Below, piece by piece: positions 24,092 through 26,666 of a DNA stretch of 64,000 bases. The stretch's first letter is position 1; every line of letters starts with the position of its first letter. A program made the position numbers and the translations under genes. Source of the DNA: Phaeobacter sp. A36a-5a. Lineage in GTDB: Bacteria > Pseudomonadota > Alphaproteobacteria > Rhodobacterales > Rhodobacteraceae. Location of the stretch: positions 186,001 to 250,000 of the forward strand of contig NZ_JBBLYU010000002.1 in assembly GCF_037911135.1 (NCBI RefSeq). The letters are read 5' to 3'. The notes beneath the pieces are model-generated. The model was not told the origin of the DNA and searched no databases. It saw only the letters and a program-made list of their open reading frames with translations.

Positions 24092-24613
24092 ATGAAACGA
24101 CCGATCCTGATCCATCCTGATCCCCGCCTCAAGAAGGTATGCCCAGCTGTTCCCGACCTTTCGGACGCATTGCGCACGCTGGCCGACGACATGCTGGAAA
24201 CCATGTATGCTGCGCCGGGTATCGGCCTTGCCGCGCCGCAGATCGGCGTGCTGGACCGCCTTATCGTGCTGGATTGTGTCAAGGAAGAGGATGGCCCGGC
24301 CCGCCCTCTGGTCATGTTCAACCCAGAAGTGGTTGCAGCATCGGATGACATCAATGTCTATGAGGAAGGCTGCCTGTCCATTCCCGATCAATACGCCGAG
24401 GTGACACGCCCCAAGGTGGTTGACGTCGAATGGATGGATCGCAACGGCAATCCCCAGCGGGAAACCTTTGATGGTCTTTGGGCGACCTGCGTCCAGCATG
24501 AGATCGACCATTTGAACGGCAAGCTGTTCATTGATTACCTGAAACCGTTGAAACGGCAGATGATCACACGGAAAATGCAGAAACTGAAGCGCGAGCGCGG
24601 ACGCGGTAGCTGA
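24092..24613 (+). CDS. def: peptide deformylase
   Basis: Removes the N-formyl group from nascent proteins. All three family motifs are intact in this 173-residue copy: GIGLAAPQ (43-50), EGCLS with metal ligand C94, and HEIDH (136-140) with catalytic E137. It is the first of three consecutive deformylase-like genes followed by fmt, which makes formyl-Met-tRNA, so the whole formylation cycle is encoded together. This is the best candidate for the main cellular deformylase. Confidence 0.96.
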   Translation: MKRPILIHPDPRLKKVCPAVPDLSDALRTLADDMLETMYAAPGIGLAAPQIGVLDRLIVLDCVKEEDGPARPLVMFNPEVVAASDDINVYEEGCLSIPDQYAEVTRPKVVDVEWMDRNGNPQRETFDGLWATCVQHEIDHLNGKLFIDYLKPLKRQMITRKMQKLKRERGRGS

Positions 24614-24685: not shown

Positions 24686-25195
24686 ATGACGGTTCTCCAG
24701 ATCAGGGCTTGGCCCGACCCGGTGCTGAGTAGCCCAGCTACGCCGGTGACTGACCCGTCAGAGGTTGCGGATCTGGTGCGCGATATGCTCGATACCATGT
24801 ATGCCGCGCCGGGTCGTGGACTGGCCGCGCCCCAGGTCGGTGTTCTGGCACGGGTATTTGTTATGGATACGACCTGGAAGGAAGGCACGCGCGACCCGCT
24901 GGTCTGCCTGAACCCAGAGATCATCGCCCTTTCCGATGAGATGGCGACACGCACCGAGGGGTGCCTGTCGATCAGGGGCCTCAGTCTCGATGTGACGCGC
25001 CCAGCCTGGGTAGATCTCGGTTGGACCGACATGAAGGGCGTGCGCCATCAGCGCCGGTTTGACGGGTTTGCTGCGGCTTGCGTGCAGCATGAATACGATC
25101 ATCTTGATGGTCGTGTCACTTTTGACCGGGTGGACCCAGAGGCGCGCGCTGCGGCCCTTGCCACCTATGAAACTAATCTGGAGACACCCCGATGA
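24686..25195 (+). CDS. second peptide deformylase paralogue
   Basis: A 169-residue deformylase with complete metal and catalytic residues: TEGCLS with C93 and HEYDH with H135, E136 and H139. Motif I reads GRGLAAPQ, with arginine where isoleucine or valine is usual, so substrate handling may differ. The ATG at 24686 follows GGAAAGG by eight bases; a GTG nine bases earlier falls inside that site. Its stop overlaps the third paralogue as ATGA. Probably active; a specialised role is inference. Confidence 0.88.
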   Translation: MTVLQIRAWPDPVLSSPATPVTDPSEVADLVRDMLDTMYAAPGRGLAAPQVGVLARVFVMDTTWKEGTRDPLVCLNPEIIALSDEMATRTEGCLSIRGLSLDVTRPAWVDLGWTDMKGVRHQRRFDGFAAACVQHEYDHLDGRVTFDRVDPEARAAALATYETNLETPR

Positions 25196-25689
25196 CCGTG
25201 CGCCCCTGCCTGCCCTGGCCCGACAAGCATCTGCGCAGCCGCGCCGAGGACGTGAGCGAAATCACCGAGGATACGCTGACCCTCTGGCAGGATATGATCG
25301 ACACGATGGAGGCAATGCCCGGTGTTGGCTTGGCCGCAAACCAGATCGGCGTCCTGCAGCGACTGGCAGTTGTCGACGGCTCCAGCGAACGAGGGCGCGC
25401 TGTCCGGCTGGCGAATCCCGAAATCCTGCATGCTTCGGTCGCGCTGCGGGAACATGAGGAGGCCAGTCCCAACCTCCCCGGCGTCTCGGCCAAAATCAAA
25501 CGACCGCGCGCGGTGACCGTGCGATATATGGATGAAACCGGCGCGGTGGTCGAACGGGATTTCGTCGGGATCGAGGCCACCAGCGTGCAACATCAGATCG
25601 ATCACCTGAATGGCCGTATGTATTTTGACCGGCTGTCGAAGGTGAAACGCGATATGCTGATCCGCAAGGCGAAGAAGCTGAATGGCTGA
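25192..25689 (+). CDS. deformylase-like protein lacking catalytic residues
   Basis: This 165-residue paralogue keeps motif I (GVGLAANQ, 44-51) and overall alignment, but motif II is EEASPNLP instead of EEGCLSIP, replacing the metal-binding cysteine with S92 by ungapped alignment. Motif III is HQIDH (134-138), replacing the catalytic glutamate with Q135. One metal ligand and the general base are therefore lost, and hydrolysis is unlikely. The gene is intact, translationally coupled to the second paralogue, and followed by fmt, so it is probably expressed and not a decaying remnant. A binding or regulatory role is inference. Confidence 0.88.
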
Positions 25690-25760: not shown

Positions 25761-26666
25761 ATGCGTATTGTTTTCATGGGGACGCCGGAGTTTTCGGTTC
25801 CGGTGCTGGATGCCCTGGTTGACGCGGGTCATGAGATTGCTGCGGTCTACTGCCAACCGCCCCGTCCGGCCGGGCGCGGCAAGAAGGATCGACCAACGCC
25901 CGTTCATGCCCGCGCGATTGAACTGGGTCTTGATGTCCGTCACCCGGTCAGCCTCAAGGGGGCCGAGCAGCAGGCCGAATTCGCGGATCTACGGGCGGAT
26001 GTCGCGGTGGTCGTGGCCTATGGTTTGATCCTGCCACAGGCGGTGCTGGATGCCCCCATACACGGCTGCCTCAATATCCACGCGAGCCTGCTGCCGCGTT
26101 GGCGCGGAGCGGCACCCATTCACCGCGCCATCATGGCGGGCGACAGTCAAACTGGCGTCTGCATCATGAAGATGGAGGCGGGGCTTGACACCGGCCCGGT
26201 CCTGCTGCGCGAAGCGACCGAGATTGGCCCGGAGGAAACCACCGCCCAGCTCCATGATCGGCTGTCGGAAATGGGGGCAGACCTGATCGTCCGTGCCCTG
26301 GACGGGCTGTCTGACCTGACACCTGAGGTGCAGCCGGACGCGGGCGTGACCTATGCCCATAAGATCGACAAGGCCGAAGCCCGCATCGACTGGCAACGCT
26401 CCGCGGTGGAGGTTGATCGGACGATCCGCGGGTTGTCTCCGTTTCCCGGTGCCTGGTGCGAGATCGAGGGTCAGCGCGTAAAACTGTTGGCATCCCGCGT
26501 TGTCGACGGGGCCGGCGTGGCGGGAATCGTTCTGGACGATGCGCTGCGGGTTGCCTGTGGTGAGGGCGCGGTTGAGCTGTTGCGATTGCAGCGGGCAGGC
26601 AAGGGAGCACAGGAACGCGAGATTTTCCTGCGTGGCTTTCCCGTAGCGCGCGGCACACAGCTTTAA
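25761..26666 (+). CDS. fmt: methionyl-tRNA formyltransferase
   Basis: Transfers a formyl group from 10-formyl-tetrahydrofolate to initiator Met-tRNA. The 301-residue protein starts [16 protein letters not shown], has the loop for tRNA recognition ([13 protein letters not shown]), the catalytic N-H-D set in [17 protein letters not shown] and GLDTGPVL, and the C-terminal OB-like domain. AAGGGG precedes the ATG. It follows the three deformylase genes, as def-fmt pairs do in many bacteria. Confidence 0.96.

Follow-up and report, generated by a model that had tools for sequence, protein, structure and literature searches.

A conserved third copy in the peptide deformylase gene cluster of Rhodobacteraceae has lost catalytic residues and might be kept as a pseudoenzyme at the ribosome

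In peptide deformylases (PDFs) a Cys and two His residues bind the metal, a Glu serves as the general base, and the backbone NH of the motif II Leu (Leu91) helps to hold the formyl oxygen. What use might a bacterium have for a PDF gene in which the Cys, the Glu and the Leu have all been replaced? The question is raised by a stretch of 64,000 nucleotides from Phaeobacter sp. A36a-5a (contig NZ_JBBLYU010000002.1, positions 186,001 to 250,000 of the forward strand; referred to as the window), which carries def1, def2, def3 and fmt in this order on its + strand. In window coordinates, the features on which the argument turns are:

24092..24613, + strand: def1, a canonical PDF (reading frame with motifs EGCLS and QHEIDH)
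~24686..25195, + strand: def2, a second PDF with intact catalytic residues, an Arg in motif I and no basic C-terminal helix (start codon GTG 24677 or ATG 24686)
25192..25195, + strand: the 4-nt overlap, ATGA, of the def2 stop and the def3 start
25192..25689, + strand: def3, encoding a PDF-like protein of 165 aa without the metal Cys and the catalytic Glu
25459..25476, + strand: Def3 motif II, E90-A-S92-P93-N94-L95 (EGCLSI in Def1); E90, S92 and P93 in 160/160 sequences
25588..25605, + strand: Def3 motif III, Q133-H134-Q135-I136-D137-H138 (QHEIDH in Def1); H134, Q135 and H138 in 159/159 sequences that reach the motif
25639..25686, + strand: residues 150-165 of Def3 (150-164 in the model), a basic C-terminal helix corresponding to the one by which E. 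coli PDF docks on the ribosome
25761..26666, + strand: fmt, methionyl-tRNA formyltransferase, the downstream neighbour, named by eye from the sequence

The PF01327 profile matches exactly three proteins in the genome of this strain, and these are Def1, Def2 and Def3. An earlier note, made from the letters of the window alone, had described the third copy as intact and overlapping its neighbour and the other two copies as intact, and so they are: the def3 frame opens with an ATG and is whole, it shares the ATGA with def2, and the motifs read EGCLS and QHEIDH in Def1 and EGCLS and QHEYDH in Def2. From the end of def3 to the start of the fmt frame there are 71 nt, and the four genes lie so close together that they probably form one operon. 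Inside it, 1 promoter-like and 2 terminator-like sites were found, not above the level of shuffled sequence, and a search for known RNAs gave zero Rfam matches at the locus. The arrangement recurs among 110 Def3 loci from different genomes, the window's own included: in 80 of them the start of def3 shares 4 nt with the end of the def gene before it (54/60 behind def2, and 26/50 behind def1 where def2 is missing), and fmt lies downstream of def3 in 88 (as detected by a motif search inside the fetched stretch), mostly at a distance of at most 250 nt.

Motif II of Def3 reads EASPNLPG in full, as compared with EGCLSIPD in Def1, and motif III reads QHQIDH as compared with QHEIDH. Ser92 thus stands at the position of the metal Cys and Gln135 at that of the catalytic Glu, as had been noticed previously, and to these replacements we can add Leu to Pro93, Ser to Asn94 and Cys to Ser131. 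In the 110 loci the fixed or nearly fixed sites at which Def3 differs from Def1 include Trp32, Met42, Ala59, Ala74, Ser92, Pro93, Ser131 and Gln135, and the two proteins have in common the motif I glycines, Gln51, Glu90, Arg104, Asp137, both motif III His residues, Arg153 and Lys162. An active PDF is recognized by a motif II EGCLS with the metal Cys and by a motif III HExxH with the general-base Glu; Def3 has Ser and Pro in the former and, with both His in place, Gln in the latter.

These replacements are not peculiar to the window. A sample of 198 Rhodobacteraceae genomes from 197 genera was searched with Def3, and the protein was counted as present in 164, a number that takes in one genome with a 225-bit match alone (G135) and another in which only residues 1-46 are present, close to the end of a contig (G098). 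We read 162 sequences, made up of the 110 loci, 39 further ones, 11 of the weaker matches and two more (G158 and G160) that show EASPN and QHQIDH. Among the first 160, which represent 159 genera, Gln51, Glu90, Ser92 and Pro93 occur in every one, as do the motif I residues G44 and G46, and His134, Gln135, His138 and Ser131 occur in all 159 that extend to motif III, the remaining one ending with its contig. Over the 162 sequences, then, Ser92 and Pro93 do not vary, nor does Gln135 in the 161 long enough to include it, and no orthologue keeping the Cys or the Glu was found among the 162, although such orthologues had been proposed in the earlier note as the sign of a recent mutation and were looked for. 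A further set of loci from named genomes (Phaeobacter, Leisingera, Ruegeria, Roseovarius, Marivita and others) has EASPN in 80/80 and QHQ in 80/80, these being the best 80 of 582 confirmed stretches, that is, the closest matches and so a less diverse set. A recent mutation or a sequencing error is ruled out by such fixation (160/160 sequences, 80/80 named loci), and the substitutions are ancestral.

Residue 94 (25471-25473) varies within narrow bounds, being Asn in 144, Cys in 15 and His in 1 of the 160 sequences; a weak tree implies 10 changes, 5 of which are forced by well-supported branches. The position appears to tolerate only residue types that can bind metal or form hydrogen bonds.

Fixation of this kind is matched by constraint on the remainder of the protein. 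Pairwise identity averages 0.706 for Def1 (n=110), 0.687 for Def3 (n=110) and 0.505 for Def2 (n=60), and the median dN/dS by the Nei-Gojobori method is 0.154 for Def1 and 0.180 for Def3 over the same 1585 pairs of named loci. For the 216 pairs in which all three copies are present, the medians are 0.173, 0.200 and 0.402 for Def1, Def3 and Def2, respectively; many pairs are close to saturation at synonymous sites, which inflates the absolute values, and it is the comparison between copies that holds. Identity and dN/dS together indicate that Def3 is constrained nearly as strongly as Def1 and more strongly than the catalytically intact Def2, and the purifying selection that the earlier note had thought worth looking for in the third copy was thus detected.

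Def3 was not found in 34 of the 198 family genomes, of which 8 are less than 90% complete and 6 have no PDF match at all, so that some of the absences may be assembly gaps. Taken together they imply that Def3 is dispensable in some lineages. In one genome (G157, locus L247) def1 is intact, and def2 and def3 are present only as broken remnants. The Def3 matches of two other genomes (G187 and G058) contain one internal stop codon each, and the remaining listed matches, those remnants aside, contain none. A Def3-like gene, assigned by similarity alone (67.5% identity), lies at 1086133-1086612 of NZ_CP039965.1, a 1.58 Mb plasmid record of Pseudorhodobacter turbinis with three matching places in all.

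The framework of the enzyme has been preserved around the altered site. Def3 scores 138 bits against PF01327 (cut-off 22.8) and 122.7 against TIGR00079 (cut-off 103.95), and a search of PHROGs returned one general deformylase family. Its AlphaFold2 model (mean pLDDT 94.8) superimposes on E. coli PDF 1xen with a Z score of 27.2 and an rmsd of 1.2 over 163 residues, and Foldseek concurs, so Def3 is predicted to carry the full PDF fold. The idea that Pro93 distorts its strand was dropped, as the control model of Def1 has the identical break in the motif II strand.

The C-terminal helix deserves separate comment. The contacts of E. coli PDF with the ribosome (L149, K150, R153, K157; K160, R163) are given in the sections of PMC12690207 used here. 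At the positions of K150, K157 and K160, which are residues 152, 159 and 162 of Def3, a Lys or Arg is found in 110/110 Def3 and 110/110 Def1 sequences, and in Def2 most often an Ala; the tail carries a median net charge of +8 in Def1, +6 in Def3 and -1 in Def2. Def3 lacks the full set of six contacts, since the counterpart of R153 is Met in 98/110 sequences, that of L149 is mostly Val, and that of R163 falls at about the end of the protein or beyond it. The R153 counterpart is likewise Met in 94/110 Def1 sequences, and for this reason, and because of where the R163 counterpart falls, docking of Def3 on the ribosome can be inferred as far as that of Def1 and no further. Def3 may bind nascent chains there.

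Def2 differs from its neighbours in another respect: where E. coli PDF has Ile44 in motif I, 60/60 Def2 sequences have an Arg (GRGLAAPQ in the window), and we take this position to be part of the substrate pocket. With this Arg and without the basic helix, Def2 is possibly an enzyme with a changed substrate or one that works free of the ribosome. In one of the 60 (L017) the Cys of Def2 is replaced, as are the first His and the Glu of motif III.

The substitutions in Def3 are most simply read as a loss of deformylase chemistry, and the three catalytic losses combined (Cys ligand to Ser, general-base Glu to Gln, motif II Leu to Pro) make it very unlikely that the protein deformylates. To be counted against its inactivity are the PDFs of T. 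brucei, which have altered motifs and are active (cited in the sections of PMC12690207 used here), and the joint retention of two His, a Ser and Gln51 in Def3, which would allow metal binding or some other chemistry. Def3 retains the fold, both motif III His residues, the Gln and the glycines of motif I and the basic helix, and in the parts of PMC8712518 and PMC8185961 consulted, PDF and methionine aminopeptidase are described as competing at the ribosome tunnel exit. The retained helix and the overlap with the def genes lead us to favor the tunnel exit as the place of Def3. We give about an even chance to the reading that Def3 is a non-catalytic PDF pseudoenzyme that is kept by selection, sits at the tunnel exit and tunes deformylation. 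Such a protein would occupy the dock common to PDF and methionine aminopeptidase, beside Def1 or in turn with it; it would perhaps hold N-formyl-Met ends uncut, and would thereby tune when nascent chains get deformylated.

Several other explanations have to be weighed against this one. Def3 might be an obligate subunit of a heterodimer whose other half is the active PDF encoded just upstream (Def2 in the loci that have it, otherwise Def1), and its part would be to help that enzyme bind the ribosome or to regulate it. Consistent with this are the presence of Def1 in every classified Def3 locus (110/110, 80/80 named and 50/50 further loci), the overlap of def3 with whichever PDF gene precedes it, the complementary make-up of Def2 (an intact site without the basic helix) and Def3 (the reverse), and the decay of def2 and def3 together in G157. 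E. coli PDF, however, is a monomer, and Def1 has a basic helix of its own. Def2 is missing from 50/110 Def3 loci, from 46/80 of the named and from 26/50 of the further ones, and hence is not the needed partner; the suggestion in the earlier note that Def3 is kept as a partner of the second paralogue does not survive this co-occurrence, by which a Def2 partnership is rejected as the main reason for the retention of Def3. We regard the heterodimer as unlikely, without dismissing it. Somewhat less likely still, in our estimation, is that Def3 catalyzes something else on a substrate that is not formyl-Met, either with a metal held by the two His and Ser92 or residue 94 or through a Ser-His reaction that needs no metal. 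The invariance of Gln51, the motif I Gly pair, H134, H138, S92, P93 and S131 wherever these positions are reached is more than a scaffold seems to need, and the restriction of residue 94 to Asn, Cys and His, all of ligand or hydrogen-bonding type, points the same way. On the other hand, the general-base Glu and the metal Cys are gone from every sequence read, no candidate substrate has come to light, and the motif II strand pattern is equal in the Def3 and Def1 models, which therefore give no sign of a rebuilt metal ligand.

That Def3 protects against natural inhibitors of PDF, as a decoy or a resistance factor, strikes us as improbable. Actinonin and other hydroxamate inhibitors hold on to the metal, and the ligand set of Def3 is broken; moreover, an occurrence in 164/198 genomes and an overlap with core genes suit a housekeeping role better. 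The proposal draws on the retained motif I of the pocket and on accessory PDFs of Vibrio, which are tied to inhibitor resistance according to the sections of PMC12690207 used here. That Def3 is an unselected relic in the course of being lost can hardly be credited: the 34 genomes without it, the remnants in G157 and the internal stops in G187 and G058 are what such decay would leave, but a dN/dS near that of the active Def1 and the invariance of the new residues already refute it for most lineages.

Where did Def3 come from? All the trees group the Def3 sequences into a single clade, with SH-aLRT support of 100 in a quick tree that was used solely for this statement and with supports of 97/91 and 100/100 in the others. 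Its nearest neighbor differs by tree. In the tree computed without the long rows it stands beside Def1 at 91/91, and two other trees leave it without a resolved neighbor or place it beside a long-branched row. The position beside Def1 is what a local duplication with a long stem after it could leave. Of 289 genomes sampled across the class, only the 4 that belong to Rhodobacteraceae have Def3-grade matches (above 280 bits) among the matches listed; the best listed match outside the family scores 180 bits, and the 26 outside loci listed are all canonical, with EGCLS and QHE. A class-wide Def3 family was rejected on these grounds; a rare or divergent copy may exist outside Rhodobacteraceae. We infer that Def3 arose once, early in Rhodobacteraceae, on the basis of the single clade formed by the genomes that have it.

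Comparable replacements were nevertheless met with elsewhere in the Alphaproteobacteria. Among the genomes of the 289-genome sample that lie outside the family, 35 have at least 2 of the matches listed, and 34 of these (G296 was left out) were searched with PF01327; from them, 20 lower-scoring accessory copies were fetched, picked by rank and not at random. In 9 of the 20 (group A) motif II is of the EGSVS or EGSLS type, with Ser for Cys, the second motif III His is Gln and the motif I Gln is His. In 4 of the 20 (group B) motif II is EASLS, again with Ser for Cys, the second motif III His is Tyr and the motif I Gln is Met. The remaining 7 retain the Cys. The loci are:

Group A: L284-L286, L288, L289, L293, L298, L299, L301
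Group B: L295, L300, L302, L303

Both groups retain the basic C-terminal tail (8 of the 9 sequences of group A were aligned). When 240 genomes of the class were sampled, with genomes that supplied the profiles among them, group A was found in 7 (five above 260 bits, G296 by a 211-bit score alone and G230 by sequence) and group B, by score, in 4 (G364 by score alone). Relatives of group A, identified by similarity alone, lie on plasmid records of hosts that include Mesorhizobium, Aminobacter, Sinorhizobium and Acuticoccus. For accessory PDFs of this kind UniProt has entries named 'peptide deformylase-like'.

Def3 and groups A and B are separate clades in the best tree. AU tests of a common origin rejected none of the combinations, the p values being 0.12 for Def3 with A and 0.147 for Def3 with B in the earlier tests, and 0.152 for all three, 0.101 for Def3 with A and 0.145 for Def3 with B in those run later. 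Because a single origin is not rejected, recurrence of the Cys-to-Ser change in Alphaproteobacteria is likely only. A broader and more tentative proposal, which we consider possible but doubtful, is that Alphaproteobacteria have repeatedly made a spare PDF into a non-catalytic factor of the tunnel exit by changing the Cys to Ser, losing one more motif III residue and keeping the docking helix. On this view no other case seen is as widespread as Def3, which would act as a reader or place-holder for nascent chains that begin with N-formyl-Met and would set the timing of deformylation and Met removal.

The gene cluster seen here is that of the Rhodobacterales PDF clusters described by Lamberioux et al. 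2025 (PMC12690207), who report that 98.1% of the reference species of this order have clustered PDF genes and 62.5% have three, and who call the rationale for the clustering elusive; the sections of their paper used here do not mention lost catalytic residues in one of the clustered copies. What was elusive gains a concrete form when one clustered copy turns out to be conserved and to lack the catalytic residues, and Def3 would place a pseudoenzyme in a translation step that is usually regarded as pure catalysis. Since Def3 passes the equivalog cut-off of TIGR00079, such proteins may be named and counted as active deformylases in surveys. In the open-licence PMC literature we found no paper that describes Def3, and a report elsewhere may exist; PMC3024229, in the part consulted, mentions only the PDF pair of B. 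subtilis, and the main text of the essential-gene paper on R. sphaeroides (PMC5513736) yielded no transposon data on def3.

Among known systems, the canonical type 1B PDF (PF01327, E. coli Def) shares with Def3 the full-length fold, motif I, both motif III His residues, the basic C-terminal helix and the def-fmt neighborhood, but Def3 has Ser92 for the metal Cys, Gln135 for the Glu, Pro93 for the Leu and Ser131 for the Cys. Group A (EGSVSMPG/QHEIDQ) resembles Def3 in the change of Cys to Ser, in the loss of a second motif III site and in the retention of the basic tail; it differs in that it has lost the second His and not the Glu, in that its motif I Gln has become His, and in its separate place in the best tree. 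The type 3 PDFs of S. aureus and S. pneumoniae are accessory proteins with crucial motif residues replaced and are weakly active or inactive, as described in the sections of PMC12690207 and PMC5591237 used here. Going by these descriptions alone, they are like Def3 in being accessory PDFs with replaced motif residues, whereas Def3 is altered in motif III as well and overlaps the gene of an active PDF.
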